Source: Lacisediminihabitans profunda (GTDB lineage: Bacteria > Actinomycetota > Actinomycetes > Actinomycetales > Microbacteriaceae). From it: a stretch of DNA of 64,000 nucleotides. Below, one piece after another: positions 36,352 through 53,240 of this stretch. The DNA lies in the NCBI RefSeq assembly GCF_008040105.1, contig NZ_VRMG01000015.1:124001-188000 (forward strand), given 5' to 3'. Position 1 is the stretch's first letter; each line of letters opens with the position of its first letter. A program made the translations under genes and the position numbers. The notes under the pieces are model-generated. The model did not search any database. It had not been told where the DNA came from and saw nothing but the letters and a program-made list of their open reading frames with translations.

Positions 36352-36370
36352 GTTCTCGCCGGGCGAGAAC
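36352..36370. promoter_or_regulatory. regulon palindrome, best copy (divergent isomerase / hydroxyquinol promoter)
   Basis: GTTCTCGCCGGGCGAGAAC is a perfect 19-base palindrome (central G) 41 bases before the TIM-barrel ATG and 58 bases before the maleylacetate reductase ATG. Variants with the same core CGCYGGGCG occur at 38439, 39210, 40104, 42251, 43493, 48060, 52235 and 53221. The IclR gene at 39293 is the nearest regulator and the likely reader. Confidence 0.65.
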
Positions 36371-36427
36371 AGCGGCGGCGTCGATAACAGTCCGGTGCGC
36401 AGACTAGGGGCTGGGAGAGGAACTGAC

Positions 36428-37504
36428 ATGGAACGGTTCGCACACAACACGCTTGCACAGCGCGTCGTCGTCGGGACGGGAACGATTGTCGGCGATCTCC
36501 TCGATGAAGTGGCCCGACTGTCTCTCGGTAGGGTGCTGCTGATCGGCGAGAACCGCCCGGACGGGCCGGCCGCCGAGATCGATGCGGCTCTGCATCCGGT
36601 CGCGTGGCTCACGTCCATCGAGCAGCACGTACCCGCGGACCTCGCCACGCGAGCCCGCGAGACGGCGACCGAGTCGGCCGCCGATGGAATCGTCGCGGTC
36701 GGCGGAGGGTCATCCATCGGGCTCGCCAAGATCATTGCTCTGTCTCACGGCATCCCAATCATCGCGGTGCCGACCACCTTCGCCGGCTCCGAGGCTACGG
36801 ATGTCTGGGGCATCACTGAGGACGGCCACAAAAAGACGGGGCACGATCTTCGCGTGCTCCCCCGCACCGTCGTGTACGACACCACACTCACCGCGACTCT
36901 GCCCGCGTTCATGATCGCGGCCTCGGGGATGAACTCGGTCGCGCATGCGATCGACACTCTGTGGGCACCGTCCGCCGATCCGATCAACGGTGCTCTCGCC
37001 CTCGAAGCGCTCCGAGCGCTCAACACCGGACTCCGCGCAATTGTTGCGGGCGACGCCGCTGACGCGGATCGCATGGAGGCCACGACGGGCACGTATCTTG
37101 CGGGTGCCGCGTTCGCCTCCGCCGGCTCCGGACTTCACCACAAGATCTGCCACGTGCTTGGCGGCACCTTCGGTTACCCCCACGCTCCCACCCACGCAGT
37201 TGTGCTGCCCTACGTGCTGGCGCTCAATGGTCCACTCGTGCCCGACACGACGCGTCGGATCGCCGACGTGCTCGGCACGGGCACCGCTCTCGGCGGCCTG
37301 ATCGCGCTCGGCGCGGCACTGGACGCCCCCCGCGCGCTGCGCGACATCGGACCCGTCTTCGATCACGCGGCGGCAGCGGACATTATCCTCGGCGAAGCTC
37401 CGCCCTCGAACCCGCGTCGACTGACGCGCGACCTGCTCATCGAACTCCTCGATCTCGCGTGGCAGGGCGGCGACGCGGAAGAACTCGAAAGGAACGCACG
37501 ATGA
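36428..37504 (+). CDS. maleylacetate reductase
   Basis: 358 residues of the iron-ADH superfamily. [17 protein letters not shown] opens the protein, [19 protein letters not shown] is the dinucleotide loop, and metal-region residues are in [35 protein letters not shown] and [14 protein letters not shown]. This set is specific for maleylacetate reductases, which reduce maleylacetate to 3-oxoadipate with NAD(P)H. GAGAGGAA precedes the ATG at 36428. The next gene, the ring-cleavage dioxygenase, overlaps it (ATGA). The product feeds the pcaIJ-pcaF enzymes of this window. Confidence 0.93.
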
Positions 37505-38403
37505 ACACCGCTTCCGGGGGTTCGGCCCCCGACCTCCAGACACGATCGGAACTCGAGCTCATCGACGAGGTCGTCCGCTCCTTTGATGGCACATCGAATG
37601 CCCGACTGCGGCAGATCCTGCAGGCGGTCGTGCGGCACTCCCACGCCCTCGTTCGCGAGGTGCGGCTCACCGAGAAGGAGTGGGACGCAGCGATCACGTT
37701 TCTCACCGAGGTCGGGCACATCACCGACGACCGGCGCCAAGAGTTCGTCCTGCTTTCCGACGTGCTGGGCGTGTCGATGCAGACGATAGCCGTGAACAAC
37801 GAACGTCAGGGTGACGTGACGGAGGCGACGGTGTTCGGCCCGTTCTTCGCCGACGATGCGCCGCGTATCGAGAATGGCGGGGACATCGCTTTCGGCGCCG
37901 CGGGCGAGCCCAGCTGGGTGCACGGTTCGGTACGCGATCTCGACGGCGAACCTATCGTCGGTGCTCGCATCGAAGTGTGGGAGGCCGACGAGAACGGGCT
38001 GTACGACGTGCAGTACTCCGACGAACGCACCGCTGGCCGCGCCTGGCTCACCTCGGATGAGAAGGGTGACTATCGGTTCTGGGGTCTCACGCCGACGCCG
38101 TATCCGATTCCCCACGACGGCCCGGTCGGCCGACTTCTCGAGGCGGCGGGGCGCTCACCGGTACGAGCCCCGCACCTGCACTTCATGGTCTCCGCGCCGG
38201 GCAAGCGCGCTCTGATCACGCACATCTTCGTTGCGGGCAGTGACTACCTGGAGAGGGACAGCGTCTTCGGCGTCAAGGATTCGCTGATCAAGGACTTCGT
38301 CCGGCACGCCGTCACCGAGCCGACCCCCGATGGTCGGCTCATCACTACTACGACCTGGACCTCGGTGCTATTCGACATCGTGCTGGCCGACGAGCTCGAC
38401 TGA
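37501..38403 (+). CDS. hydroxyquinol 1,2-dioxygenase (intradiol)
   Basis: 300 residues. The N-terminal helical dimerisation domain (about 15-100) is typical of catechol-type intradiol enzymes. Fe(III) ligands are Tyr168 in [12 protein letters not shown], Tyr201 in [14 protein letters not shown], and His225/His227 in [10 protein letters not shown]. The pairing with maleylacetate reductase makes hydroxyquinol (1,2,4-benzenetriol) the likely substrate over catechol, giving maleylacetate. It ends just before a strong hairpin terminator. Confidence 0.92.
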
Positions 38404-38406
38404 CGC

Positions 38407-38447
38407 GCGAGAACCGGCGAGTCGCCAGGCGAACCGCCGGTTCTCGC
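38407..38447. terminator. bidirectional hairpin between convergent genes
   Basis: A perfect 13-base stem (GCGAGAACCGGCG at 38407-38419 with its complement at 38435-38447) and a 15-base loop sits between the dioxygenase stop and the convergent SnoaL-like gene. There is no T run, as is usual in high-GC actinobacteria. The right arm overlaps a copy of the regulon motif (38439-38457), perhaps by chance. Confidence 0.7.
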
Positions 38448-38454
38448 TGGGCGA

Positions 38455-39123
38455 TCAGTGCAGGGGGATGCCCGCCGAAGGCGCACCACCGAGCCACGCG
38501 GCACCCGCGCGGTAGAGCTCGTCGACGGCGTCTCCCACGAGGCCGGGCAGGTGGTTCTTGACAGTGAATCCCTGCTTGACCTGGAGGTATCCCAGATGGC
38601 GGTAGCCCGTCGGCAAAGAGTCCAGTAAATCGGGATCGAGCGCGAGCGTCGCCGAGGGGTCAATAACAAACAACTGGTCCTTCTCGTAGATGGGTTGGCG
38701 GCGAACGATGCGCCACTGCCCCGCGCGGCACTCGAAGAAATCGTAGAACCGGCCCGTGCACAGCACGTCTACACCGACCCCGTCGATCTCCGCACGCTGG
38801 CTGATCGTCATCTTGGTCTGGGCGATGGCCCGATCCCCGACGACATCGATCGAGCATCCACCGAGGAAGTGCAGGATGCGCACCCCGGCCTCGAAGCCCT
38901 CGCGGCTGACGCGGATGAACTCGGTGTACGCGCCCTGAAACCAGGTCGCGGTCATGTATCCGTCGTCGTGCCAAACCGTCGCGAAGCGTTCCCAGTCGCC
39001 GGCATCCCGCCACACCGCCCAGCTTTCTACGGTGTCGCGGATCTCGCGACGAGCACGCGCTACCTCGGCGGCGTCGCGTCGGTTGCCGCTGGCGGTGTCG
39101 GCAGAAACGTCGTTCGTTAACAT
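38455..39123 (-). CDS. SnoaL-like (NTF2-fold) protein
   Basis: 222 residues. The segment WAVWRDAGDWERFATVWHDD, then TATWFQGAYTEFI and GRFYDFFECRAGQWRIVRR, belongs to the SnoaL_4/NTF2-like cone fold also used by small subunits of ring-hydroxylating oxygenases and by dehydratases. An Asp/His pocket (WHDD) is visible. A C-terminal extension of about 60 residues (DPDLLDSLPTGYRHLGYLQ) is specific to a less known branch. It is divergent from the IclR gene and probably belongs to its regulon. The function may be dehydration or isomerisation of a pathway intermediate (inference). Confidence 0.82.
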   Translation of the reverse strand: MLTNDVSADTASGNRRDAAEVARARREIRDTVESWAVWRDAGDWERFATVWHDDGYMTATWFQGAYTEFIRVSREGFEAGVRILHFLGGCSIDVVGDRAIAQTKMTISQRAEIDGVGVDVLCTGRFYDFFECRAGQWRIVRRQPIYEKDQLFVIDPSATLALDPDLLDSLPTGYRHLGYLQVKQGFTVKNHLPGLVGDAVDELYRAGAAWLGGAPSAGIPLH

Positions 39124-39209
39124 GGCGATTTTACCTTTCGTGCGCGTTGCTTTGACCGGTACTGCGCGCCTGCAGCTTGGCCGCAGAGTCCCGCGTTCGG
39201 GTCCCCAAG

Positions 39210-39227
39210 TTTTCGCCCAGCGGTATT
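39210..39227. promoter_or_regulatory. regulon palindrome in the SnoaL / IclR divergent promoter
   Basis: On the minus strand it reads AATACCGCTGGGCGAAAA, matching the core CGCYGGGCG of the perfect copy at 36352. It lies 86 bases before the SnoaL-like ATG and about 65 bases before the IclR ATG, so it could serve autoregulation. Confidence 0.55.
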
Positions 39228-39292
39228 TGAATGGAAACGCTATAAGCTACGAGCGGCGCAGCAGGGCGCTGCAGACGACGACCGGAGGCACC

Positions 39293-40099
39293 ATGAGCGG
39301 GAATTCGGCAGAGCCGGGTCGCACGACCACGAGCCGGGTGCTGGCTATTCTGGGGGCGTTCTCCCCGGCAGCGCGATCACTGTCCCTCTCCGAACTCTCG
39401 CAGAACAGCGGGCTGCCCATACCAACGGCCCACCGCCTCACGACGGAACTCGTGACTTGGGGAGCCCTCGAGAAAACTGAGACGGGCCGCTACCGCATCG
39501 GAATGCGAATTTGGGAGATCGGGTCTCTAGCACCGACCCAGCAAGGCCTGCGCACGGTCGCCCTTCCGTACATGCAGGATCTCTACGAGGCGACTCACGA
39601 GAATGTGCAGCTCGCCGTGAGAGAGGGAAACCGGGTGGTCTACGTCGACGCGATTTCGGGTCATCGCTCGGTGGGGACTGAAACTCGGGTCGGCGGAAAC
39701 CTCCCGCTTCACGTCACCGCTGTCGGCAAGATCGTGCTCGCTTACTCCGAACCCCAGTTGTTGAGCAGTACGCTCGCCGCCGGACTTACCTCGTATACCC
39801 GGTTCACCATCACAGAGTCTCACCTGCTCGCTGAGGCTATCCAGCAGATACGGGCCGAGCAACTCGCCTACTCTCGGGAAGAACTCACTTTCGGGGTGTG
39901 CGCCGTCGCGGCTCCCGTGCTCGCGAACGACGGCAGTCTCATCGCCGCTCTGGCGATCGTCGGCAGGTCATCGATGAATATCACCGCCCTCGCACCGGCG
40001 CTACGTACGGCAGCGCTCGGCATCGGACGACGCATGACAGCGCTGCCCGCCGCGTGGCGCCGGTCGCCGACGACGCAGCTCGCGGCACAGTTCGACTGA
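39293..40099 (+). CDS. IclR-family regulator of the catabolic cluster
   Basis: 268 residues. The winged helix (about 12-70) contains LSLSELSQNSGLPIPTAHRL, and the effector domain has RTVALPYMQDLYEATHENV, LPLHVTAVGKIVLAYSEP and LTFGVCAVAAPVL. A GGAGG lies 5 bases before the ATG at 39293. Its own promoter carries the palindromic motif found throughout the cluster, and it is the only regulator between 35.5 and 54 kb. It is therefore the natural pathway regulator. It is a distant paralogue of the pca IclR gene. Confidence 0.9.
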   Translation: MSGNSAEPGRTTTSRVLAILGAFSPAARSLSLSELSQNSGLPIPTAHRLTTELVTWGALEKTETGRYRIGMRIWEIGSLAPTQQGLRTVALPYMQDLYEATHENVQLAVREGNRVVYVDAISGHRSVGTETRVGGNLPLHVTAVGKIVLAYSEPQLLSSTLAAGLTSYTRFTITESHLLAEAIQQIRAEQLAYSREELTFGVCAVAAPVLANDGSLIAALAIVGRSSMNITALAPALRTAALGIGRRMTALPAAWRRSPTTQLAAQFD

Positions 40100-40103
40100 T
40101 CTC

Positions 40104-40122
40104 TTCTCGCCCAGCGAAAACC
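40104..40122. promoter_or_regulatory. orphan regulon palindrome downstream of the IclR gene
   Basis: On the minus strand it reads GGTTTTCGCTGGGCGAGAA. It follows the iclR stop by only 4 bases and precedes no intact gene. The roughly 500 bases to 40618 hold a possible short coding fragment (40151-40291, plus strand, VLLRSHVYALIQQAKPHG, unrecognised) and an alpha/beta-hydrolase remnant. The site may have served a gene that has been lost. Confidence 0.5.
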
Positions 40123-40290: not shown

Positions 40291-40580
40291 TCAAGCAGGC
40301 CGCTTTGACCACCGCGACCAGAAGCTGAGGAGTGCTTTCGCGAGTTCGAGCGGGCGCTCCTCCGGCGCGTAGTGGCCGCATTCCAGGATCACGCCGCGGA
40401 TGTCGTGGGCACGCAGCCTAAGCCTGTCGTACAACAGGCCGCGGACGCCAGCGCTCGCGTCGACCGTCAGCAACGGCACCAGGATGCGGCGCTCTCCTCG
40501 GCGAGTAGCGACCCCGCGACCCGTGTCGCTGAAGTTCTCGCGGTAGTACTCGAGTCCAGCGCGGCAGCTGGACCGCTGGA
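40291..40580 (-). pseudogene. alpha/beta hydrolase C-terminal remnant
   Basis: About 95 codons. RAGLEYYRENFSDTG and then RILVPLLTVDAS and GVILECGHYAPEERPLELA match the cap end and catalytic-His region of the Asp-nucleophile hydrolases found intact at 52280-53143 (DCGHYLPEEQP) and elsewhere. The N-terminal two thirds, with the oxyanion and nucleophile loops, are missing; upstream the frame is low-complexity antisense of the SDR gene. It is a broken fifth hydrolase of the cluster. Confidence 0.65.
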
Positions 40581-40618: not shown

Positions 40619-41305
40619 TTACGGCCAGTCGTGAACCGTGACATCGGTGACGTACAACTCGCGGATGACGACGGAACTGGGCTGCTCCAGGCAGAACATG
40701 ACGGTGTCGGCGACGTTCCCGGGAGCCATCCTGTCCATCGACGGTGTGAATCGTTCTGGGCGTCCGTCGAAGAAGTTGGTGTCCATGGTGCCAGGGTTGA
40801 CAAGCGAAATCGGTATCACGCCGTTGAGCTCGAGCGAGAGGGCGTGGAACATCGCACGGAACGCGTGCTTCGAAACCCCATATGCCGACATCCCCGGCGT
40901 GATGCGCCGCCCGGCGGTGGAGCCGATGCCGACGAGCCGGCCCTTCGCCGCCTTCAACGCCGAGATGCCCGCTCTGGCGACGGCCGCGTTGCCGAGCAGG
41001 TTCACCGCGATGGGCTTACTCCAGGTTTCGATGTCCTGCTCCTCGAACATGCCCGGGATATTGATTCCGGCGCACAGTACGAGCGCGTCGATCGCGCGAC
41101 CATCCCCAATCGCTTCCTCACCGGCCGCGAAGGCCGCGGCTGTATCCGAGAGGTCGGCCAGTACGGTGGGAGCCTTTTCGCTTGGATTGCGATCGATGAC
41201 CGTCACCTCCCATCCCTTGAATAAGGCACGGGTCACGACCTCTGCGCCGAGGCCGCTCGAGCCTCCCGTGATTACGAGTCGGCGGGAGGGGGTGTCAATC
41301 GGCAT
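40619..41305 (-). CDS. short-chain dehydrogenase/reductase
   Basis: 228 residues. LVITGGSSGLGAEVVTRAL is the cofactor loop, LVLCAGINIPG replaces NNAG, and the catalytic Ser and Tyr/Lys are in VGIGSTAGRR and SAYGVSKHAFRAM. It is a complete classical SDR. Its ATG shares a base with the stop of the upstream hydrolase gene (TGATG), so the two enzymes are made together and probably act in succession. The divergent promoter beyond that gene holds a regulon palindrome. Confidence 0.9.
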   Translation of the reverse strand: MPIDTPSRRLVITGGSSGLGAEVVTRALFKGWEVTVIDRNPSEKAPTVLADLSDTAAAFAAGEEAIGDGRAIDALVLCAGINIPGMFEEQDIETWSKPIAVNLLGNAAVARAGISALKAAKGRLVGIGSTAGRRITPGMSAYGVSKHAFRAMFHALSLELNGVIPISLVNPGTMDTNFFDGRPERFTPSMDRMAPGNVADTVMFCLEQPSSVVIRELYVTDVTVHDWP

Positions 41306-42162
41306 CAGGCTTCCAAGAACGGAAGCAGTACGTCCAGCAGTTCACTCGGGCGCTCCTCGGCAACCCAGTGACCACAGTCACGGATGGAATGAGCAGTGAC
41401 GTCCTCCGCGAACTCCGACAGCACAGCCCCGATCCGATCGCCCCAGCGTCGGTCGCCGCCAACCCCGAGCACCGGAATGCGCAGCGGGTCGAGCGCGAAC
41501 CGTCGGTTGTCGATCACATCCTGCGGCAGCGCACGATACCAGCCGAGGGTTCCGCGGGTCGCGCCGGGCTGGGCCAACGCCGCGGCCCACATCGCTAAGT
41601 CATCGGCGGTCATCGCCCCCTGGTTGTACATCCGCTCCCGGATCATTGTCTCGACGTACGCGGTCTCCCGGCCGGCGATGAGCAACTCCGGCAGGTCTGG
41701 CTCCTGATGGAAGCTGAAGTGCCACATGGGTCGACTCAGCAACGCCGTCTCCCATTCGCGAGCGCCCGGCAGGAGAACGTCGATGACGGTGAGACGGTCC
41801 ACGGACTCCCGGAAGCTCGCGGCCCACGCGTACGCGACCATCCCCCCGAAGTCATGTCCGACGACGGATACGGTGTCGAAGCCCAGCTCTCGCCGTAACG
41901 CGTCGAGCTCGCCCGCCATCGTCACCTTCTCGTAGCCCGTTGCGGGCTTAGTGGACTGCCCGGCACCCTTCAGATCGACGGCGATGACGGTGAAGCGCTC
42001 GGCGAGCGGGTCCATCACGTGGCGCCACCCCTGCCAGGTCTGCGGAAAACCGTGCAGAAGAAAGAGAGGACGACCCGATCCCCCGATGACCGAGTGCAGC
42101 TGCACCCCGTTCCCAACATCCGTCATGTGATGCTGGAAGTCGCCGCTGGAACCCGCGTCCAT
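41305..42162 (-). CDS. alpha/beta hydrolase, Asp-nucleophile type (epoxide hydrolase/dehalogenase-like)
   Basis: 285 residues. The oxyanion loop is LHGFPQTWQGWRHVM, the nucleophile elbow VVGHDFGGMVAYAWA carries Asp instead of Ser, and the catalytic His is in DCGHWVAEERP. Asp nucleophiles mark the haloalkane dehalogenase, fluoroacetate dehalogenase and epoxide hydrolase lineages. It is clearly paralogous to the gene at 51226-52143 (same HHMTDVG start and GWYRALP/EWYRAFP cap). I use the ATG at 42162; one at 42126 (MTDVGNG) is possible. It is coupled to the following SDR. Confidence 0.87.
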   Translation of the reverse strand: MDAGSSGDFQHHMTDVGNGVQLHSVIGGSGRPLFLLHGFPQTWQGWRHVMDPLAERFTVIAVDLKGAGQSTKPATGYEKVTMAGELDALRRELGFDTVSVVGHDFGGMVAYAWAASFRESVDRLTVIDVLLPGAREWETALLSRPMWHFSFHQEPDLPELLIAGRETAYVETMIRERMYNQGAMTADDLAMWAAALAQPGATRGTLGWYRALPQDVIDNRRFALDPLRIPVLGVGGDRRWGDRIGAVLSEFAEDVTAHSIRDCGHWVAEERPSELLDVLLPFLEA

Positions 42163-42250: not shown

Positions 42251-42269
42251 GTTACCGCCGGGCGAGATG
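42251..42269. promoter_or_regulatory. regulon palindrome, hydrolase / TIM-barrel divergent promoter
   Basis: GTTACCGCCGGGCGAGATG holds the CGCCGGGCG core, 89 bases before the hydrolase ATG and 69 bases before the TIM-barrel GTG. Nearly the same string, GTTACCGCTGGGCAAGAA, precedes the hydrolase at 48158. Confidence 0.58.
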
Positions 42270-42337: not shown

Positions 42338-43138
42338 GTGAGCTATGAAGTGACTCTCTGCGCGATGAACCTGCTCCAGGTTGGATTCGACGAGCGCGTG
42401 CGCGTGGCATCGGCAGCCGGATTCGACTCTATCGGCCTCTCCCTCGCGCAATACCGACAGGCTCAGGACGACGGTTTCACGGATGCCGCGATGCGGGCTC
42501 TGCTCGCGGACACCGGGCTGCGCCTCGCCGAGATCGAGGGACCGTGGGATTGGCTGAGCGGCGACGCCTCGTCCCTCGAAGACACCGCAACGATCTTGCA
42601 TGCAGCGCGCGCGCTTGGATGTTCCCACATCACCGCTGTGCAATTCGTGCCCGCCGATGTCGATCATCGGGTCCGTGCGCTAAGCCGACTATGCGATGCC
42701 GCAGCGGAGTTCGGCGCCCGAGTCGGGCTCGAATTCATGCCGTTCAGTAACGTCCCGACGCTCAGCGATGCCTGGGGCATCGTTCAGGCCACCGCTCGGG
42801 ACAACTGCGGCTTGGTACTCGACAACTGGCACTTTCAGCGGACGAACGGGTGGGAGGAGCCCCTAGCCCTCATCCCCCATGAACGCCTCTATGCCATTCA
42901 GCTCTGCGATGCCGCGGCCGAGGCGGAACCGGATGCGCGCGAGGAGGCTCGTCACCGTCGACTGCTCCCGGGCGAGCAATCAGTCGCCATCCTCCGCCGC
43001 CTCGAGGACATCGGTTTCGCGGGTCGGCTGTCGACCGAGGTCTGGTCCGATGAACTCTTCCGCGCCGACCCGCGCGACGCCGCCGATCGTCTGTTCTCCG
43101 CCACGGTTACCGCGCTTCGCGCGGCGAACTGGCCCTGA
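42338..43138 (+). CDS. sugar phosphate isomerase/epimerase-like TIM-barrel protein (paralogue)
   Basis: 266 residues, same family as the protein at 35502-36311: VRVASAAGFDSIGLSLAQYR in the first repeat, VGLEFMPFSNVPTL with the metal Glu, LVLDNWHFQRTNG with Asp and His, AIQLCDAAAEAEP and the final STEVWSDELF Glu. A metal-dependent isomerase, epimerase or dehydratase is expected. GTG start at 42338 behind AGAGGACAGGGAA. The two paralogues in one regulon suggest two steps, or two substrates, of one pathway. Confidence 0.86.
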   Translation: MSYEVTLCAMNLLQVGFDERVRVASAAGFDSIGLSLAQYRQAQDDGFTDAAMRALLADTGLRLAEIEGPWDWLSGDASSLEDTATILHAARALGCSHITAVQFVPADVDHRVRALSRLCDAAAEFGARVGLEFMPFSNVPTLSDAWGIVQATARDNCGLVLDNWHFQRTNGWEEPLALIPHERLYAIQLCDAAAEAEPDAREEARHRRLLPGEQSVAILRRLEDIGFAGRLSTEVWSDELFRADPRDAADRLFSATVTALRAANWP

Positions 43139-43608
43139 GTGACGTCGAGACCAAATGCTGTCAGCTCACCGCGCTAATCGGAATGAGACTCTCCGGATCC
43201 GCGGATGCCTCGACGAGGCTCTCGAGCTGCGTTTCGAAAGTCACCGGCTGCAGGGTCTGGACGGTGCGGCAACGCTTCGTCCCATAGAACAAGACCGCGG
43301 ATGAACGTTGCCAAAGCAAGATGGGACATCAGAATGCCCCAACGCTTCCTACCGCTGCGGGTGGCACCCGCCATAAGGTGTCGGGGATCCCGCGCGATGT
43401 GCGAGCCGCGTCGGTCGTCCACCCCGCCGATTCCCCATTCCGACACCGGCCTCACTGAACGCCACTGCCTTCGCTCCGATACCACCAATTCTATTTCGCC
43501 CGGCGGAACCTCGATCGATCAGTCCGATCCCGAGGCGCCTAGTGTCCCGAGGATGTGACGCCAGCCTGACGCTGTGTCACCACAAATCACGACAGACAAG
43601 GAACAACG
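43139..43608. other. 470-base spacer before the ABC operon
   Basis: No gene is supported on either strand. Short frames exist but have no family resemblance and poor codon use. The right end holds a regulon palindrome (43493-43510) and the ribosome-binding sequence AAGGAACAACG of the binding-protein gene. The left part may be eroded coding DNA; I cannot identify it. Confidence 0.5.
43493..43510. promoter_or_regulatory. regulon palindrome upstream of the ABC importer operon
   Basis: On the minus strand it reads GGTTCCGCCGGGCGAAAT. The 15-base core TTTCGCCCGGCGGAA (43494-43508) is nearly symmetric. It lies about 100 bases before the binding-protein ATG, in the only promoter region of the ABC operon. 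Confidence 0.6.
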
Positions 43609-44775
43609 ATGTTCAGATCCAAGTCCATGCCTAAAGCCATTGGTGCACTGGCGTTGGTTGCGCTCTCGATGGTCGCACTTAGCGGCTGCGCTACCACCGC
43701 AGGGACCCCTGCCGCGAGCAAGCCAGCGGACAGCAAGAGCGCTGCGGAATTCACTGCGAAGATCGGTGCCGACATCACCGAGTTGTCCAAGCCGAATCTC
43801 GCACCGGCCCCCGCGTCCGGCCCGGCAGCCGTTTCGGGGAAGACGATCGCGGTCTTGCCCGTCACTTTGGCCGACGCGTCTGCGAAGCGCGCGTCCAATA
43901 CCGTCGTGGAGGCGAGCACGGCGATAGGTTGGAAGGCCACGATCTACGACACTCACGTTTCCGCAACTGAGGCAAACGAGAAGCTGCTGCAGGCGGTCAC
44001 CACAAAGGTCGATGGAATCGTCCTCGTCGGCCTCGACCCGCAGAACATCGGAAGTGGTCTGGCCGCTGCAAAGGCAGCTGGCATCCCGGTCTCGTGCATC
44101 GCCTGTTGGGGGCAAGACGATGCCGACACGAAGTCGAAGTTCCTCTCGGTCGCCCCGTCTGAGCAGGTCCTGACGGACTTGGGACGGGTGAGCGCCGAGT
44201 ACGCCTATCAGTACACGAAGGGACATCCCAAGTTCCTGGCGATGAACGACACATCGCTGACCAACCTCAAGTTCCGCCAGAACGGCTTCGACAAGTTCGT
44301 CGCGGACTGCACGAGTGCCGGAGCGGACTGCCGAGTATTGGCGAACCAGAATTTCCAGTACGCCAACACATTCACGACTCTTCCGGCGCAGGCTGCGTCG
44401 CTCGCCCAGGCACATCCCGGCTTCAATGCATTTTGGGCCGGCTTCGACGTCGCGGCACCGCCGATCATCAGTGGGCTTACTCAAGCCGGACTGACCTCGA
44501 GTGGTTCCTTCCTCGTCGGCTCGCAGGGTGACGGGGCAAGCGAGAAGCTCATCGCCAGCGGCGGATACCAGAAGGCCACTGTGGCCATCTCCTGGGAGTG
44601 GGCGGCGTACGGGATCATCGACAACTTCAATCGCCAGTTCAGCAAGGGAAAGCCGATCGACGTCACGGTGCCGATCCGCCTCTTCGACAAGTCCAACATC
44701 GCAGAAGCGAAAGACGGCACATGGGACGGAGACGTGGACTTCCGCGCCGCCTTCAAGAAGATCTGGAACGGCTAG
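43609..44775 (+). CDS. ribose-type ABC transporter substrate-binding lipoprotein
   Basis: 388 residues. A lipoprotein signal ends at Cys27 (MVALSGC), followed by a flexible Ala/Ser/Pro stretch and a periplasmic-binding-protein type 1 domain (about 75-385) with TIAVLPVTLADASAKR, KVDGIVLVGLDPQNI and FWAGFDVAAPPIISG. This domain binds sugars or sugar-like molecules (ribose, xylose, inositol, autoinducer-2) outside the membrane. The first gene of a three-gene import operon. The ligand here is probably the entry substrate of the cluster (inference). Confidence 0.92.
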   Translation: MFRSKSMPKAIGALALVALSMVALSGCATTAGTPAASKPADSKSAAEFTAKIGADITELSKPNLAPAPASGPAAVSGKTIAVLPVTLADASAKRASNTVVEASTAIGWKATIYDTHVSATEANEKLLQAVTTKVDGIVLVGLDPQNIGSGLAAAKAAGIPVSCIACWGQDDADTKSKFLSVAPSEQVLTDLGRVSAEYAYQYTKGHPKFLAMNDTSLTNLKFRQNGFDKFVADCTSAGADCRVLANQNFQYANTFTTLPAQAASLAQAHPGFNAFWAGFDVAAPPIISGLTQAGLTSSGSFLVGSQGDGASEKLIASGGYQKATVAISWEWAAYGIIDNFNRQFSKGKPIDVTVPIRLFDKSNIAEAKDGTWDGDVDFRAAFKKIWNG

Positions 44776-44780
44776 CCGCG

Positions 44781-46361: not shown

Positions 46362-47380
46362 TGACTCAGCACGTAACGGATAAGCCACAGGTAGCTTCCG
46401 GCCCGGCGCCGGCGGGCGCGGCGATCCAATCGAACCGAGCGATCGCCGTCTCGGCATCTCGATTCGGATTGCCGGTCCTGCTCATCATCCTCATCGTCAT
46501 CTTCTCGGTTCTGGCTCCCCAGACCTTCGCGACAGTTACGAATTTGAGGACGGTCCTCAGTACACAATCCGTTCTCGCCGTGCTCGCGCTGGCGGCCATG
46601 ATGACGTTGGTCATCGGCGAGTTCGACCTTTCGCTCGGTGCGCAGATGGGGCTTTCGGCGCTACTCTTCCCCGGCCTTGCCGCGAATGGGACGTTGCCTC
46701 TTCCCGTCGCACTGATTTGCGCGATTCTCGCCACGACGCTGGTAGGCCTGATCAACGGCATCCTGGTCGCGAAACTGAAGATCAACTCGTTCATCGCGAC
46801 GATCGGGATGGCGGCGTTGCTCTCCGCCGCAGTTCTCGCATACTCGGGAGGCAACACCATTTATGCGGGCGTTCCGCCGTCGCTCCTCTCGATCGCGGCC
46901 TTTGCCCCATTGGGCATCCCCGGACCGATCATCTACGTAGCCGTTATCGCCCTGGTCGTGTGGTTGCTTCTGCAGCGCACACCGTTCGGTCGCTGGATGG
47001 CCGCTGTCGGCGGAAGCCGGGATGCGGCCAAGCTCTCGGGAATCAACACAGACCGGGTCACGGTTGTCACGTTCACGCTGGCGGGAGTCTTGTGCGGGAT
47101 CTCCGGTGTACTGCTGGCAAGTCAACTCGGAAGCGGGAACCCGGCCGTCGGCCCCGGCCAGCTGCTGCCCGCCTTCGCCGCCGCGTTTCTCGGTGCGACC
47201 TCGTTCCGTGTGGGCCAATTCAATGTGTGGGGAACGATCTTCGCGGTCTTGACGATTGCGACGGGAGTCGCTGGATTGAACCTGCTGGGACTGCCCTCCT
47301 GGGTGGAGCCAGCGTTCAATGGGTTGGCCTTGATCGTCGCGGTGACCGCCACCCGTTACCTCCGTGGAAAGCCGTTGTAG
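46361..47380 (+). CDS. sugar ABC transporter permease
   Basis: 339 residues with about eight to ten transmembrane helices of the RbsC/AraH (BPD_transp_2) family. It has the coupling region VIGEFDLSLGAQMGLSALLF, GLINGILVAKLKINSFIATIG and GAVGGSRDAAKLSGI-like loop VGGSRDAAKLSGINTDRV. The protein would work as a homodimer with the double ATPase. It is the last gene of the operon, followed by a hairpin terminator at 47395-47419. Confidence 0.93.
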   Translation: MTQHVTDKPQVASGPAPAGAAIQSNRAIAVSASRFGLPVLLIILIVIFSVLAPQTFATVTNLRTVLSTQSVLAVLALAAMMTLVIGEFDLSLGAQMGLSALLFPGLAANGTLPLPVALICAILATTLVGLINGILVAKLKINSFIATIGMAALLSAAVLAYSGGNTIYAGVPPSLLSIAAFAPLGIPGPIIYVAVIALVVWLLLQRTPFGRWMAAVGGSRDAAKLSGINTDRVTVVTFTLAGVLCGISGVLLASQLGSGNPAVGPGQLLPAFAAAFLGATSFRVGQFNVWGTIFAVLTIATGVAGLNLLGLPSWVEPAFNGLALIVAVTATRYLRGKPL

Positions 47381-47419: not shown

Positions 47420-47477
47420 GCGGGCCGCGGAGGGCGGGAGCATTCCGGGCGCCCTCAAACTGTAGACAAGAATCAAG

Positions 47478-47835
47478 ATGGTCCTCGGCCTGGACCGGAA
47501 GATTTGGCGGTTGCTGAAGCGTGACGGCATCGACGTGGCCCGCTGCACCGTCGAGCGGCTGATGCGCCGGCAGGGGATGCCTGGGATCCGCCGCCTTCGT
47601 CGCCGACGTCTTCGGCCGCCGCATCGTCGGTTGGCGAACCACGACCGGAGAAGCCACCGCCGGGGTCGCGCACCACAGCGACGCGGGATCCCAGTACACC
47701 TCAATCCGACGCACCATTCCGCACCATCGACGAGCTCGAACTCGCGACCCTGTCCTGGGTGAAAACACCGCCCAGCCGCAACCGCGACAGGGAGAACCCG
47801 CCCTCCACCAACCCCGGGGCGATCCAGGACAGTAC
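47478..47835 (+). pseudogene. IS3-family transposase (OrfB) remnant with internal deletions
   Basis: Three OrfB pieces follow one another in changing frames. The first reads RKIWRLLKRDGIDVARCTVE and RLMRRQGMPGIRR (helical N-terminal region). The next, from about 47593, reads AFVADVFGRRIVGWR and later HHSDAGSQYTSI (DDE integrase core). The last, from about 47723, is TIDELELATLSWV. Order and strand are right but the distances are far too short and frames shift, so the element is dead. Its ends are not evident. It separates the ABC operon from the esterase gene. Confidence 0.75.
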
Positions 47836-48059
47836 AACTAGCGACTCACGCCCACACGGTCACGGCCCTTCAGGCGGCGAACTGGCCCGCGTGAGTGCGA
47901 GCGTTACCGCGGTCGGCGCAACCGCCGTTTATCGGGATGAAATCCCGGCGGACACGCGGAGATCACGACGATGCACTCGAGAAGCGCTTCGAACGTTATC
48001 GAATCTCCGGGCCGCCCCTTGCGGCAGCATAAAGCCAGGGAACCGAGACAATCGAGCAC

Positions 48060-48077
48060 GTTACCGCTGGGCAAGAA
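48060..48077. promoter_or_regulatory. regulon palindrome upstream of the Ser-hydrolase gene
   Basis: GTTACCGCTGGGCAAGAA, about 80 bases before the start of the hydrolase at 48158, matches the site at 42251 at 15 of 18 positions. The remaining DNA from 47840 to 48157 shows no gene. Confidence 0.5.
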
Positions 48078-48157
48078 GACATGATGTGCGTGGCAACGAC
48101 ACCGGCCTAGGGTTTTGCCTGCGCGCCATAAGGACGTGGCCGCGGATGGAGAGAGAA

Positions 48158-48886
48158 ATGCCGCAGACCTTCGTATTGATAAACGGCGCCTGGCACGGCG
48201 GTTGGGCGTGGCACGCGGTCGCGTCCGAACTTCGGACAGCAGGACATGAGGTGTACGCCCCGATCCTCCCCGGCCTGGGCGAACACGATGACCCGTCGAC
48301 ACTCACCCTTCAAGAGTGCGTCGACTTCGTCGCTGACTACATCACCAGCAAAGGCCTCTCAGAAGTGATCCTGGTTGGACATAGCTGGGGCGGCTTCCTC
48401 GTCTCGGGCGTGACCATGAAGCTCGGACGCGCGATCGCCCGCCGCGTCTATTTAAACGCCCACGTACCACTCACCGGCGAATCGCTCAACGACATCGTGC
48501 CGCCGGAATACGTGACACTATTCGACGAGCTCGCAGAGGCCTCCGGCAACAACTCGGTGAGCTTGCCTTATGAACTCTGGCAGGAGGCGCTCATGCAAGA
48601 TGCCGGCGAGGAAGCGCAGCGAATCGCCCACGCGGGGCTATTGCCCCAGCCCTACCGCTACTTCACGGACAGCCTCGATCTCGATGGCCTCGAAGATAAG
48701 GGCGTCCCGGCCAGTTACGTCACGTCGCCAGATGACCTCGCTCTGCCGCCGGGTGAGTACGGCTGGACGCCCCGCTTCCCCGACCGCCTCCGGAACGTCA
48801 GGATCGTAGCCACGGTTGGCAGTCACGAGAGCCTCTTCACCCAGCCGGCAGCAGTCGCTGCTGCGCTACAAGAGGCCTCAGCCTAG
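48158..48886 (+). CDS. alpha/beta hydrolase, Ser-nucleophile esterase type
   Basis: 242 residues. FVLINGAWHGGWAWHAVASE forms the oxyanion loop, VILVGHSWGGFLVSGV the nucleophile elbow with Ser, and VGSHESLFTQP the catalytic His. This short, cap-rich type resembles plant methylesterase/hydroxynitrile-lyase-like enzymes, so it could split an ester of an aromatic acid or a C-C bond. The GTG/ATG choice: ATG at 48158 with GGAGAG upstream; an ATG at 48146 is less well spaced. A regulon-type palindrome lies upstream and an intrinsic terminator downstream, so it is a single-gene unit. Confidence 0.88.
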   Translation: MPQTFVLINGAWHGGWAWHAVASELRTAGHEVYAPILPGLGEHDDPSTLTLQECVDFVADYITSKGLSEVILVGHSWGGFLVSGVTMKLGRAIARRVYLNAHVPLTGESLNDIVPPEYVTLFDELAEASGNNSVSLPYELWQEALMQDAGEEAQRIAHAGLLPQPYRYFTDSLDLDGLEDKGVPASYVTSPDDLALPPGEYGWTPRFPDRLRNVRIVATVGSHESLFTQPAAVAAALQEASA

Positions 48887-49387: not shown

Positions 49388-51226
49388 TCAGGAGTGCTCC
49401 GAGCGGAGCTGAGCCGCACGTCGCACGGGCGAATTGCTGGCTCCGAATGCGAGGTAGTCGCCCAGCCTCTGCACTATCTCGAAGAACACGTTGTCGCGCG
49501 TCTCGGTGTACGCCTGCAGGAACTCGCCATCGGAATTCCGGTCATACATGATGTTCAACGCCTTGAGCGTCTGGACGTATTCGGGCGACAGATCGAATCG
49601 GCCGATCAAGTCGTCGTAATAGTTAGTCGGCAGCTGCAGCATCGGCACCCCGTTGAGGTCAAGGGAACGCACGGTCGAGAAGATGTCTCTCGACCCGAGC
49701 GCGATGTGCCCCGGAGATCGCGCGCCTCCTCCGGCCACGGACTCGACGACGCTCGTGGGGAGCACGTTGAGCACGACCCGAACCGTGCCGGCCCCATTGG
49801 CGAGCACCTGACTGCGAACGAGGCCGCGCTCGTCGGCCACGTCCTCGCTCGGTTGTGCGACCAGCCCAAGGATCGACCGATAGAAGAGAACCGCTTCGTC
49901 GAACGTGCGCCAGTTCTGAGGGAGCGCGATGTGATCCACATGGTCTATTGCTCGAGACCTCGCCGGCTCGGGTTCGGTTGCACCCGAGAAGCGTCCGATC
50001 CAGTCCGGCTCGTTCGCGACCGGTGCGGGACTCAACCCGACTCGCACCGATCCCGGGGCCCGCAGCACGTGGCTCGACGGACTCGGATCGGGTGCGACGT
50101 CGTGAGCGAGTAGCTCGCCTGCCCTCCGCGATGCCGCCTCGACGTCGACCAGGTGAAACCCGATCCCCACGATCCCGACAGGTGCGGTGTCGTCCGACCC
50201 ACTCGTCGTGATAATGAGCCGCACATCCCCCTGCGACCACAGATCGTCGCCGTTGCCGGATGCACCGCGATGAACGAATCCCAACGCGAGGAAAGTGCCG
50301 TCCAGGTCGTGCCGCTCGGGTACCGCGACCCGGATGTAATCGAAATCCTCCGCGGGACCACTGTGCGTCAGACGCGTCAACGAGGGACTGACTGCGCCGT
50401 CTCGAAAGCCGACTGTGGTCGCGGTGATGTCTTCGAGATAGCGAAGCGAACGGAGGCCGTCGATCGCAGTCAGTCGTGGATCCGTCTGCCTGAATACGTC
50501 GTTGAAGACCTCGATCGACATCGGACCGGCGTATCCGGTTTTGGCGATCGCGGCGGTCCACCCGACGAGGTCGAAATCACCCTGCCCGGGAAACAGGCGA
50601 TAGTGGCGACTCCAGGACAGCGGATCCAGCTGGATCAGGGGGGCATCCGCGACCTGGGCGAAGAAAATCTTCTCACCGGGGATCTCCTCGATCAGCTCGA
50701 GCGATGATCGCCGAGACAGCATGTGGAAGCTGTCAAGACACAGGCCGACCGCGGGGTGGTCCGCCTGGCGAACGATCGACCACGCATGGTCGTACGTCGA
50801 CACGAAGCGCCCCCAGGCGAGCGCTTCGTAGGCGATCTTGACCCCCCTCTCCTGGGCGAGGTCGCCAAGGACCCTCAACTGCTCCGCCAGCAGGTCATCG
50901 TCATCGATCACCGCCGTCGCTACGTTCGAGCACAGCAGCATCAGCGGTGCGCCGAGCTGTGCGGCGACATCCAGCTTTGCAGCAGCCCGGCGAAGGTTGG
51001 CTTCGAACTGGGATTCGAGCACTCCCTCGAAGTCGCGGAAAGGCTGATAGAGCTCTACGGCCATGCCAAGGTCCCTGGCGAAACGCCCCACGCCCCGCGG
51101 ACTCAGGGGACTCGCGATGAGATCATTGTCGAAGATCTCGACGCCGTCGAATCCGGCAGCTGCCGCGGCCCCGAGCTTCTCCTCCAATGAGCCGGAGAGG
51201 CTCACCGTGGCGATGGATGCCCTCAT
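49388..51226 (-). CDS. TIM-barrel / VOC fusion, 3-dehydroshikimate dehydratase (QuiC)-like
   Basis: 612 residues with two parts. Residues 1-280 are a xylose-isomerase-like TIM barrel: AAAAGFDGVEIFDNDLI, VKIAYEALAWGRFVS with Glu, VGLCLDSFHMLSR with Asp/His, and PMSIEVFND with Glu. Residues 300-612 are a two-module VOC region like 4-hydroxyphenylpyruvate dioxygenase, with HVDHIAL, PGHIALGS and the final VFFEIVQR giving His, His and Glu. This fusion is known from bacterial 3-dehydroshikimate dehydratases, which make protocatechuate. That would link the cluster to pcaHG. Its ATG shares a base with the upstream hydrolase stop (TGATG). Confidence 0.88.
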   Translation of the reverse strand: MRASIATVSLSGSLEEKLGAAAAAGFDGVEIFDNDLIASPLSPRGVGRFARDLGMAVELYQPFRDFEGVLESQFEANLRRAAAKLDVAAQLGAPLMLLCSNVATAVIDDDDLLAEQLRVLGDLAQERGVKIAYEALAWGRFVSTYDHAWSIVRQADHPAVGLCLDSFHMLSRRSSLELIEEIPGEKIFFAQVADAPLIQLDPLSWSRHYRLFPGQGDFDLVGWTAAIAKTGYAGPMSIEVFNDVFRQTDPRLTAIDGLRSLRYLEDITATTVGFRDGAVSPSLTRLTHSGPAEDFDYIRVAVPERHDLDGTFLALGFVHRGASGNGDDLWSQGDVRLIITTSGSDDTAPVGIVGIGFHLVDVEAASRRAGELLAHDVAPDPSPSSHVLRAPGSVRVGLSPAPVANEPDWIGRFSGATEPEPARSRAIDHVDHIALPQNWRTFDEAVLFYRSILGLVAQPSEDVADERGLVRSQVLANGAGTVRVVLNVLPTSVVESVAGGGARSPGHIALGSRDIFSTVRSLDLNGVPMLQLPTNYYDDLIGRFDLSPEYVQTLKALNIMYDRNSDGEFLQAYTETRDNVFFEIVQRLGDYLAFGASNSPVRRAAQLRSEHS

Positions 51227-52143
51227 CAGACCGACGGTCCTGCACCAGCGAACCCGGGGGACAGGGGTAACCCGCGGCTGGTATCGCTTCCGCCATTCAG
51301 AAATGGAACGAGCAGGTCCAACAGTTCCTGAGGACGCTCCTCGGGAACCCAGTGCCCGCAGTTCGCAATGGAGCCGCCGGTTACATTTACGGCGAATTCC
51401 TGCAGAATACCGACCATCCGCGATCCCCACCGCTGGTCCCCGCCAATCGCGAGGACCGGTAGCTCAAGCGGGGTGCGCGCGAATTCACGGTTGTCGTCGG
51501 CGTCGCGCGGAAATGCCCGGTACCATTCCAGCATCCCTCTGATGGCACCGGGTCGAGCCATCGCCTCGGCGAAGACGGCTACATCCTCGGTAGTAATGCC
51601 CCCCTGGTTGTAGATGCGCTCGCGAACGAAAGAGTCGATGTACAGGAACTCTCGCCCTTGAATGAGCTGCTCTGGAAGATTTCGATGCTGATGAAACGCG
51701 AAGTGCCACAGCTTCGGGTCGACGAGGGCTGTATCCCAGAAGCTCGCCCCGGGGATCGGCACATCGATGATCGCCACTCGCTGTACCGAGGCCGGTGCCG
51801 ATGCCGCCCAGGCGAAGGCCGTCATTCCTCCAATGTCATGACCGACGACCGATACCTCGCCATAGCCGAGCTCTCGACGCAGAGTGTCGAGTTCTCGAGC
51901 CATGGCGAGTTTGCTGTATCCGTCGACCGGCTTGTCCGAGTCGCCGCTGCCTTTGAGGTCCACGGCGATCACGGTGTGGTGCTGCGCGAGCGGCCCCATG
52001 ACATGGCGCCACTCTCGCCACGTCTGCGGAAAGCCATGAAGGAGGAATACCGGCTGGCCGACACCGCCGATGACCGAATGCAGCCGTACTCCCCCGACGT
52101 CTGTCATGTGGTGCTCGAATACAACACCGTCAAACACGACCAT
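51226..52143 (-). CDS. alpha/beta hydrolase, Asp-nucleophile type (paralogue)
   Basis: 305 residues, the closest relative in the window of the hydrolase at 41305-42162. It has LHGFPQTWREWRHVM, the nucleophile loop VVGHDIGGMTAFAWA with Asp, and NCGHWVPEERP with His. About 20 extra C-terminal residues are unrelated. Predicted to open an epoxide, remove a halide or hydrolyse a related bond; the paralogy suggests that the two enzymes act on similar intermediates. First gene of a two-gene unit with the dehydratase-like fusion; a regulon palindrome lies 92 bases upstream. Confidence 0.88.
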   Translation of the reverse strand: MVVFDGVVFEHHMTDVGGVRLHSVIGGVGQPVFLLHGFPQTWREWRHVMGPLAQHHTVIAVDLKGSGDSDKPVDGYSKLAMARELDTLRRELGYGEVSVVGHDIGGMTAFAWAASAPASVQRVAIIDVPIPGASFWDTALVDPKLWHFAFHQHRNLPEQLIQGREFLYIDSFVRERIYNQGGITTEDVAVFAEAMARPGAIRGMLEWYRAFPRDADDNREFARTPLELPVLAIGGDQRWGSRMVGILQEFAVNVTGGSIANCGHWVPEERPQELLDLLVPFLNGGSDTSRGLPLSPGFAGAGPSV

Positions 52144-52234
52144 TTCGTCCGCCTCTCGTGAGTTGCGACTGACATCAGGCGGATGCAGTCGCCGAGCAGC
52201 CTAAGCAGGGATGTTCGACGCGGCTCAGTCACGA

Positions 52235-52251
52235 CTCCGCCCGGCGGAATA
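52235..52251. promoter_or_regulatory. regulon palindrome upstream of the hydrolase / dehydratase unit
   Basis: TCCGCC - C - GGCGGA (52236-52248) is a perfect palindrome; on the minus strand the site reads CTATTCCGCCGGGCGGAGT. It is 92 bases before the ATG at 52143. Confidence 0.55.
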
Positions 52252-52279
52252 GGTCGCTCGGGAGGTTGAAGCCTCTCAT

Positions 52280-53143
52280 TCAAGGCCCAGCCGAGAAGAA
52301 CTCCTTCAAGTGCCCCAGTACGGCCCCCGGCTGTTCCTCTGGCAGGTAATGTCCGCAGTCCGGGATGGCGTACCCCTGGACGTCGGACGCATATCGTCCC
52401 CAGATTCCGAGCACGTCATCGTTGCGCAACCCACCGTCCGCGCCCCATAACAGGAGGAGCGCAGCGGTGACGACGGTGCCTGCTGCGGCATCTTTGTCGT
52501 CCCTCTCGAGGTCAATGCCGAAGCCGGCGCGATAATCCTCCAGCGACGCCGCCAGATGTGCCGGATCTTCAAACGCGCGGAGATATTCGGATAGCGCATC
52601 GTCATCGATGGCACCCTTCTCGAGCGGCTCGCGAAAGAAATATCGCAGGTACGGCTCGGTGTTGCCGGCGAGCAGGATCTCCGGGAGGTCGGGCTGACGG
52701 TGGAAGAACCAGTGCCACATGCGCGTAGCCGAATCCACATCGACGGCAGCCATCACTTCGCGGGTAGGAAGGATATCGAGGAGAGCGAGCCGCTCGATGT
52801 CGGCGGGGTGGTCGAGCGCCCAGCGGTGAGATACGCGGGCGCCACGATCGTGACCGGCGACGAGAGCAGACGCATGACCCAGATGCTGCAGCAGCTCATG
52901 GAGATCGCGCGCCGTCGAGCGCTTATCGTAGCCTGTCGTCGCCAGGCCAGAGGCCCCGTACCCTCTCAGATCGGGAGCAACGACGGTGAATTCTCCGCCG
53001 AGCCCCTGCATCACGTGACGCCAGCAGGTGCTCGTCTGCGGCCATCCGTGCACCAGCACGACCAGCCGCTCGCCGTCCCCGAAGCGGCGGTAGGAAAGTC
53101 GCACCTCGTCCAGATCGACGGAGTGTGCGGTGACTTTCGACAT
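52280..53143 (-). CDS. alpha/beta hydrolase, fluoroacetate-dehalogenase-like
   Basis: 287 residues. The oxyanion loop is LVHGWPQTSTCWRHVM, the nucleophile elbow LVAGHDRGARVSHRWALDHP has the GHDRG signature of fluoroacetate dehalogenases and related hydrolases, and the catalytic His is in DCGHYLPEEQP. The cap contains WHWFFHRQPDLPEILL. The halide-binding set (His/Trp/Tyr) is only partly evident, so an ester or epoxide substrate is also possible. It is divergent from an SDR gene with a weak regulon palindrome in the gap. Confidence 0.88.
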   Translation of the reverse strand: MSKVTAHSVDLDEVRLSYRRFGDGERLVVLVHGWPQTSTCWRHVMQGLGGEFTVVAPDLRGYGASGLATTGYDKRSTARDLHELLQHLGHASALVAGHDRGARVSHRWALDHPADIERLALLDILPTREVMAAVDVDSATRMWHWFFHRQPDLPEILLAGNTEPYLRYFFREPLEKGAIDDDALSEYLRAFEDPAHLAASLEDYRAGFGIDLERDDKDAAAGTVVTAALLLLWGADGGLRNDDVLGIWGRYASDVQGYAIPDCGHYLPEEQPGAVLGHLKEFFSAGP

Positions 53144-53220
53144 GCGGCAACCTTCTCTCCGGTACGCAATCTCGCACCGTCGGTGACCGTACCACCTGGA
53201 CCGAATCCAATAGTCTCACC

Positions 53221-53240
53221 GGTTTCCGCCGACCGAAAAC
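53221..53240. promoter_or_regulatory. weak regulon palindrome, hydrolase / SDR divergent promoter
   Basis: GGTTTCCGCCGACCGAAAAC keeps the outer halves of the motif (compare GGTTTTCGCTGGGCGAGAA) but two central G positions differ. It sits 78 bases before the hydrolase ATG and about 60 bases before the SDR ATG. Confidence 0.38.

Follow-up and report, generated by a model that had tools for sequence, protein, structure and literature searches.

Do the palindromes scattered through the aromatic-degradation cluster of Lacisediminihabitans profunda mark a single regulon, and is its regulator the IclR-family protein encoded in the middle of that cluster (39293-40099, plus strand)? The window analysed here is the whole stretch of 64,000 nucleotides taken from contig NZ_VRMG01000015.1, and positions refer to this window. 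We find eight 19-bp sites placed between genes, before most transcription units of the 18-kb cluster. Eight palindromes at a near-constant distance before most units suggest one regulator encoded mid-cluster: IclR is the likely candidate, and we hold with good though not complete confidence that it binds the eight sites and activates the cluster promoters. The regulon is supported by the computational tests that we judged most telling, above all the spacing between site and -10-like hexamer. A single IclR regulon, as the original prediction had proposed from nine sites, is thereby upheld by site specificity, by this fixed spacing and by palindromes beside homologous iclR genes.

All nine predicted 19-mers are present, at most 2 nt from the coordinates first given, and the site at 36352-36370 is indeed a perfect palindrome (9/9 pairs complementary) without another copy within two mismatches in the 4.0-Mb genome. 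The core originally proposed, CGCYGGGCG, is exact in seven of the nine sites, with deviations at 48060 and 53221. The bare core occurs 21 times in the window (9.7 expected) and was rejected as the motif because 14 of these matches lie away from the nine sites. The 19-bp motif, about GWTNYCGC-N3-GCGRNAWC, is much more specific: the pattern GTTNYCGCYGGGCGARAA with at most three mismatches is matched 13 times in the window, where 1.8 matches would be expected (0/100 shuffles). The nine sites are also the nine best-scoring 19-mers in the 64 kb, albeit under a matrix built from the same sites and hence circular. When sites are left out one at a time, their ranks in the window are 2, 9, 8, 3, 5, 8, 9, 12 and 5 for the nine-site matrix, and 3, 6, 2, 6, 8, 10, 9 and 6 when only the eight promoter sites are used. 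In 80 kb of other DNA from this genome, the score of the left-out site was reached by no match for seven of the eight sites and by one match for the eighth.

The motif is concentrated in the cluster genome-wide. Allowing up to one mismatch to the consensus gives five match rows (four sites), all inside the cluster; allowing up to two gives 25 rows, nine of them in the cluster (eight sites, 38440 included and 52233 missed) and 16 outside. These counts are partly circular, since the pattern was derived from the sites themselves. The outside places fall inside predicted genes in 14 cases and between genes in two, a coding share close to background (the window coding fraction is 0.85), whereas the predicted cluster operators are intergenic in 8/8. 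The comparison of promoters with coding DNA that had been suggested as a check on the regulon thus comes out in its favour. The two intergenic places (L057 and L059) and a coding match at 60537 in the window were considered as extra members and set aside, as none of them has the spacing to a -10-like hexamer.

This spacing was examined by orienting the sites towards each gene possibly served, which gives 11 directions; the plus direction of 40103, whose hexamer had already been seen, was added as a twelfth. Offsets were counted from the palindrome centre to the first base of a predicted -10 hexamer. TANNNT stands at exactly +39 in five of 11 directions, against a maximum of two at any offset in 500 shuffles. 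With YANNNT, seven of 12 directions have the hexamer at exactly +39 and ten at +38 to +40 (9/11 without the orphan 40103), while bins three positions wide hold 0.7 on average and none exceeds two except those overlapping 38-40. In 5000 random rotations of the promoters the maximum was six in any bin and five at 38-40. The spacing is present at eight of the nine cluster sites against one of the 16 similar genomic places outside the cluster. The best -35 matches to TTGACA reach 2-4 of 6 letters with spacers of 15-20 bp, and an operator centre near -51 without a good -35 hexamer would be an activator-type layout. An IclR activator would be expected to have its operator at a constant position upstream of -35 and to activate in an effector-dependent manner; the constant distance is seen in ten of 12 directions, and the sites would probably serve activation. 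If transcription is assumed to start 12 bp past the first hexamer base, the start predicted for the first TIM-barrel gene (TIM1) coincides with its ATG (36311). Under this assumption the alpha/beta hydrolase ABH1 would begin downstream of its longest-reading-frame start, at 42162 and not 42243, in agreement with codon usage.

Operator 1 (GTTCTCGCCGGGCGAGAAC, 36352-36370) would serve the divergent promoter of TIM1 (minus strand) and of MAR-HQD (plus strand), the genes for a probable maleylacetate reductase and a hydroxyquinol 1,2-dioxygenase, with CAGAGT at +38 (36323-36318, minus) and CAGACT at +39 (36400-36405, plus). Predicted operator 2 (39209-39227) lies between the gene of a decarboxylase-like SnoaL_4 protein (minus) and iclR (plus). 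It has CAAGCT at +39 towards the former and a -10-like TAAGCT at +25 towards the latter; with TAAGCT at this distance operator 2 would overlap the iclR promoter, a position that would fit autorepression. Predicted operator 3 (40103-40121) begins 4 bp past the iclR stop and has TAACGT at +38 on the plus strand, with no intact gene found directly downstream (an orphan promoter). A site right after the iclR stop is also found in Georgenia and Rhodococcus erythropolis R138 (there the second site), and in both an operon follows. Predicted operator 4 (42251-42269) occupies the divergent promoter of ABH1 and the short-chain dehydrogenase SDR1 (minus) and of the second TIM barrel, TIM2 (plus), with TACCCT and TAGCGT, respectively, both at +39. 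The same offset is seen for predicted operators 5 (43492-43510, ABC importer promoter, TAGTGT), 6 (48060-48078, hydrolase ABH2 promoter, TAGGGT) and 7 (52233-52251, promoter of ABH3 and a QuiC-like gene on the minus strand, TAGGCT), the last having the lowest matrix score among the eight. Predicted operator 8 (53222-53240), between ABH4 (minus) and SDR2 (plus), has TACGGT at +40 towards ABH4 and no hexamer at 38-40 towards SDR2, which makes the membership of SDR2 uncertain. Of the gene content first proposed, ring cleavage, the TIM barrels, the importer, the hydrolases and SDR1 are retained and SDR2, which is without the spacing, is uncertain; the list was also incomplete, given that the decarboxylase-like and dehydroshikimate-dehydratase-like genes belong to it too.

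A weaker match to the motif at 28913 (score 14.3) has CACGGT at +39 and lies upstream of the IclR gene of a pca-type cluster in the same window. The region around it (28580-29045) holds an Fn3-like remnant (28715-28867) in frame with a short-chain dehydrogenase gene. Possibly 28913 is a further, ninth operator, or else it arose by chance.

Seven of the nine predicted sites do lie in promoter gaps, as had been claimed; the other two are 40103, just past iclR, and 38440. The latter (38440-38458) occupies the 3' side of a hairpin at 38407-38447, in the gap where the HQD and SnoaL_4 genes converge. The 20-nt arms of this inverted repeat are 90% complementary, and its minimum free energy is -42.6 kcal/mol on one strand and -42.9 kcal/mol on the other (z -4.6 and -6.3). 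By position and stability it appears terminator-like, though it is not followed by a run of T. Site 38440 nevertheless ranks ninth under the eight-site matrix, but all of the other eight have a hexamer at 38-40 and it does not. An operator is the less likely reading here: the site listed as 38439 is probably one side of the hairpin, and we dropped it from the regulon.

The same layout recurs in related clusters, in which identities were obtained by comparing the window proteins with fetched loci using tblastn. In about 11 kb of Embleya sp. NBC_00888 we find homologs of IclR (49%), SDR2 (54%), SnoaL_4 (64%), TIM2 (38%), HQD (43%), MAR (43%), TIM1 (52%) and ABH4 (57%). The locus of Georgenia sp. 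EYE_87 holds IclR (50%), TIM2 (43%), a hydrolase (48-54%), SDR2 (48%), SnoaL_4 (57%), MAR (51%) and HQD (64%, truncated at the locus border), and that of R. erythropolis R138 holds IclR (50%), SnoaL_4 (68%), MAR (50%) and HQD (61%). The cluster of the window can consequently be read as a recurring module, here divided into many predicted transcription units. Palindromes beside the related iclR genes were sought by symmetry, after which seven were picked by eye for their likeness to IclR half-sites. YANNNT stands at +38 to +40 in four of these seven: Georgenia (CTTCCGCTCAGCGGGAG, TAGCGT at 38), R138 twice (CTGCCATTCAGTGGCAG, TAGAGT at 39; TTACCACTGAGTGGCTG, TATCGT at 39, missed by the symmetry search) and Embleya (ATTGCCACTGAATGGCAAT, CACATT at 38). 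Used as it is on the loci of IclR homologs elsewhere, the window matrix gives few matches above 14. Microbacterium iclR genes, whose products are 37-39% identical to ours, are accompanied by palindromes of the TTTCGC or TTCCGC type at six loci (L035-L039 and L041). CANNNT stands at 38-39 in five of their seven intergenic matches, from five loci with two pairs of near-copies; the sixth locus, L041, has the CANNNT spacing too, with its site inside a gene predicted by the gene caller. In one Microbacterium locus (L035) iclR lies beside an aconitase-X-type cluster (aconitase X, UGSC, AMP-binding ligase).

The half-sites of these palindromes seem to follow, with exceptions given below, one residue of the recognition helix. 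In our IclR alignment (A1) this position was mapped, by inference, to PobR Arg60 and TtgV Gln51, which passages of PMC8222616 place among the DNA-contacting or specificity positions. The window and Georgenia proteins have His here, with half-sites ending in CGC (TTYCGC in the window; TTCCGC and TCCCGC in Georgenia), and those of R138 and Embleya have Arg, with half-sites ending in CCA (TTGCCA, CTGCCA, TTACCA). A third Arg protein, from the metagenome-assembled genome Dino_bin23, again goes with a CCA end and is accompanied by GTTGCCATCCAATGGCAGC with TAGCGT at 39, and a Streptomyces Arg protein by ATGTTCATTCAATGGACAC without a hexamer.

We propose that IclR 39293-40099 binds the eight 19-bp palindromes and, together with an aromatic effector, would activate the cluster promoters: a dimer bound near -51 (centre 38-40 bp upstream of -10) would contact RNA polymerase and replace the missing -35 element. 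At operator 2 it would activate the decarboxylase-like gene and, by overlapping the iclR promoter, repress iclR. Several observations weigh against this proposal. Matrix scores of the 16 outside places reach 19.9, 16.9 and 16.5, those of the weaker cluster sites are 16.2-19.4, and the best outside place, inside a gene, beats four of the nine sites; given this overlap, matrix score alone does not tell the two groups apart. The -10 hexamers are predicted only, three of the ten are CANNNT, and both iclR (plus) and SDR2 (plus) are without the spacing. The hexamer was first spotted by eye in the same promoters and YANNNT was widened from TANNNT afterwards, for which reason the rotation test across all bins is the fair comparison. 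Among the seven palindromes picked by eye, three have no hexamer at the expected distance: the other Embleya copy (12900) and the two that accompany a different R138 iclR (44% identical). Near 29 iclR genes, the window included, 19 palindrome-hexamer offsets fall at 38-40 and 17 at 47-49, so that this test is weak taken alone, and a half-site matrix run on 32 loci gave 19 intergenic matches of which five have the spacing, all in Microbacterium. No IclR homolog (E <= 1e-60) above 46% identity besides the protein itself was found in the 398 family and 396 order genomes sampled, which makes close footprinting impossible. As for the recognition helix, a Gordonia protein has His with a TTTCAC half-site (TCTTTCACTCAGTGAACGA, TACCGT at 39), and Tyr and Leu proteins carry other half-sites.

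The same sites might also be explained by IclR acting as an effector-released repressor, the fixed spacing then reflecting shared promoter ancestry. TsdR, a regulator of the hydroxyquinol type, is presumably a repressor and counts for this explanation. The IclR family moreover holds repressors, activators and dual regulators (passages of PMC8222616). Nonetheless, an operator centred near -51 would not cover -35 or -10, a good -35 hexamer is absent from the promoters, and the spacing recurs in other genera with an altered half-site; we consider repression improbable and activation the better reading. Alternatively, the sites may belong to another factor such as the IclR paralog of the pca-type cluster (26998-27765). 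This protein, encoded in the same window, is 41% identical to ours and has the same recognition-helix His, so it could share the sites, which weighs against our proposal, and its gene has the match at 28913 upstream. It is the 39293 gene, however, that the sites surround, homologous clusters have a spaced palindrome beside the homologous iclR, and the pca region has one weak match only, in a stretch with a gene remnant, so that a different factor appears quite unlikely. Chance, base composition or gene-end hairpins probably do account for 38439, and in their favour there are 14 bare cores away from the nine sites, and some coding places elsewhere score like cluster sites. For the other eight, which share a hexamer distance unmatched in 5000 rotations, we regard such an origin as hardly credible, and as computationally refuted for the set.

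The regulator itself belongs to the IclR family by its N-terminal HTH_IclR and C-terminal IclR effector domains (PF09339, 50.9 bits, cut-off 22; PF01614, 123.2 bits, cut-off 24), and scores below the cut-off of TIGR02431 for PcaR/PcaU/PobR (136.1 against 284.75 bits). HQD (37501-38403, plus; PF04444, PF00775) is assigned as a hydroxyquinol 1,2-dioxygenase from its closest solved relative (phmmer 6e-127 to 1tmx) and its intradiol domains. MAR (36428-37504, plus; PF00465/PF25137) is an iron-containing alcohol dehydrogenase and probably a maleylacetate reductase, judging from this domain and the neighbouring HQD; it is 50% identical to a gene annotated as such in R. erythropolis R138. The SnoaL_4 protein (38455-39123, minus) resembles the decarboxylases PPP2 and AGDC1 (7jmr and 6w54; phmmer 1e-22 and 7e-21). 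Positions aligned to AGDC1 W35, D40 and H86 are kept, also in 4/4 bacterial homologs aligned, and the position aligned to the potassium ligand E88 is not Glu. AGDC1 mutants H86A, D40N and W35A are inactive (passages of PMC7862292), and the protein is probably an AGDC1-type hydroxybenzoate decarboxylase.

The remaining enzymes comprise two xylose-isomerase-like TIM barrels (both PF01261) that resemble Lmo2234 (2g0w), namely TIM1 (35502-36311, minus; phmmer 8e-21) and TIM2 (42338-43138, plus; 9e-39). The sugar-type ABC importer (43609-47380, plus; PF13407, PF00005, PF02653) consists of a binding protein (43609-44775), an ATPase (44781-46361) and a permease (46361-47380), with starts set by codon usage. 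Four alpha/beta hydrolases are ABH1 (41305-42162, minus; PF00561), whose start was shifted by codon usage and lies downstream of the predicted -10, ABH2 (48158-48886, plus; PF12697; start by inspection, 48146 by codon usage), ABH3 (51226-52143, minus; PF00561) and ABH4 (52280-53143, minus; PF00561). SDR1 (40619-41305, minus; PF00106) and SDR2 (53302-54072, plus; PF13561) are short-chain dehydrogenases. The QuiC-like protein (49388-51226, minus), a bifunctional enzyme of the dehydroshikimate-dehydratase type, aligns over residues 1-609 of 612 with 5hmq (phmmer 6e-136) and falls below the cut-off of the QuiC equivalog NF042435 (497 against 1200 bits). A C-terminal alpha/beta hydrolase fragment (40321-40410, minus; 45-56% to ABH1, ABH3 and ABH4) follows SDR1 and lies opposite the orphan promoter at 40103. 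A remnant of an HTH_21 (IS3-type transposase) gene lies between permease and ABH2 (47466-47888), and beyond it 10/11 codons match the TIM2 C-terminus (E 0.004, weak); both are possible traces of rearrangement. Elsewhere in the window, Pfam domains reveal the pca-type cluster (21854-28579, minus) with PcaCD-, PcaB-, PcaH- and PobA-like genes, a short-chain dehydrogenase and the IclR paralog weighed above. Together with the QuiC-like enzyme this cluster could carry protocatechuate onward.

From these functions we infer a substrate and an order of reactions. The importer would take up a plant-type ring compound, which the hydrolases and short-chain dehydrogenases would hydrolyse and oxidise. The two Lmo2234-like TIM barrels and the QuiC-like enzyme may aromatise or rearrange it, the AGDC1-type protein would decarboxylate a polyhydroxybenzoate, and HQD and MAR would open hydroxyquinol to maleylacetate and 3-oxoadipate.

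Homologs of the decarboxylase-like protein occur on 20 plasmid records, of which eight were examined. In six (R138, Embleya, Sinorhizobium Rm41, Shinella, Agrobacterium and Caballeronia) the gene lies near those of a maleylacetate reductase and an intradiol dioxygenase; in Bradyrhizobium elkanii and Streptomyces NBC_01562 it is not near these two. The trio of SnoaL_4/NTF2, MAR and intradiol dioxygenase genes is thus seen on Sinorhizobium, Shinella, Caballeronia and Agrobacterium plasmids, and the Sinorhizobium locus adds a type II dehydroquinate dehydratase and a sugar phosphate isomerase-like gene. The IclR protein adjacent to the Caballeronia cluster aligns at 25%, and no palindrome with the spacing stands beside it. 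On a plasmid of Rhodococcus sp. USK13 a homologous sugar-type ABC importer (45/48/57%) adjoins an NTF2 gene, with no IclR homolog in the 31 kb examined. Among 394 class genomes, the SnoaL_4 profile (E <= 1e-40) finds the own genome and one other, whose two loci have no IclR homolog and no convincing operator. TIM2 (396 order genomes, E <= 1e-50) is found in the own genome only. An HQD homolog in the same genus (68%) is accompanied by MAR, but neither an IclR homolog nor an operator was found in the 15 kb examined.

Summarizing, catabolic genes that formed a loose set can now be tested as one pathway, for which a regulator, defined operators and predicted transcription starts can be named. We found no account of the cluster or its operator in the open-access literature searched, and within that literature the claim that the regulon is undescribed holds. 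Its interest is moderate and lies in the breadth of the regulon, the rigid promoter layout and the decarboxylase module. His and Arg proteins with CGC and CCA half-sites at constant spacing offer a natural series for studies of DNA recognition by IclR activators and of their contact with RNA polymerase. Plasmids of rhizobia and Burkholderiales repeatedly carry what is probably a bacterial AGDC1-type decarboxylase module, annotated only as an NTF2-family protein in the records examined. A wider picture can be drawn more tentatively, and we give it somewhat less than even weight: a scattered regulon under one activator with a rigid code (centre 39 bp before -10), its spacing kept across actinobacterial orders and its half-site re-coded via one recognition-helix residue. 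It would serve an undescribed route from a carbocyclic or ester-linked plant acid to a polyhydroxybenzoate, cofactor-free AGDC1-type decarboxylation and hydroxyquinol cleavage, with the trio on Sinorhizobium, Shinella, Agrobacterium and Caballeronia plasmids.

Compared with known systems, the decarboxylase-like protein keeps the equivalents of W35, D40 and H86 of the gallate and protocatechuate decarboxylases AGDC1 and PPP2 (passages of PMC7862292), but it is bacterial and differs at the E88-aligned position. Plasmid pLRE138 of R. erythropolis R138 shares IclR, an NTF2-like protein, maleylacetate reductase and dioxygenase in one stretch, as well as the operator spacing; its half-sites, however, are CTGCCA and TTACCA, its neighbours are folate and P450 genes, and no TIM barrel or ABC importer homolog was found in the 24.8 kb examined. 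The gamma-resorcylate regulator TsdR of Rhodococcus jostii RHA1 is likewise of the IclR family, with the operator GTGTGRYTSSMRTCAYAC (passages of PMC8222616). That sequence is different from the window's, and among the cluster proteins scanned there is no gamma-resorcylate decarboxylase but an AGDC1-like protein instead. The TsdR pathway, we assume, runs via hydroxyquinol and maleylacetate. For one subgroup of IclR group 1 operators, WTTYCRY-W3-RYGRAAW, passages of PMC8222616 describe half-sites WTTYCRY on either side of 3-4 bp of A/T. The 16 half-sites of the window agree with WTTYCRY at W in 15, T in 15, T in 8, Y in 16, C in 15, G in 16 and C in 15, but their centre is mostly YGG/CCR and not A/T. 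The PcaR operator of Corynebacterium glutamicum, GTTCGC-N3-GCGAAC (same source), has the same inner half-site CGC-N3-GCG; the window half-site begins with T and not G, the motif is longer, its centre is mostly YGG/CCR and the regulated genes differ. Regulators of the PcaR/PcaU/PobR kind (protocatechuate, 4-hydroxybenzoate) are alike in their HTH_IclR and IclR_C domains, in the control of intradiol ring cleavage and in a palindromic operator of the YCRY-N3-RYGR type. The usual range of an IclR regulator is its own gene plus one or two neighbouring operons (passages of PMC8222616), whereas here nine gene-bearing promoter directions are predicted from eight sites.

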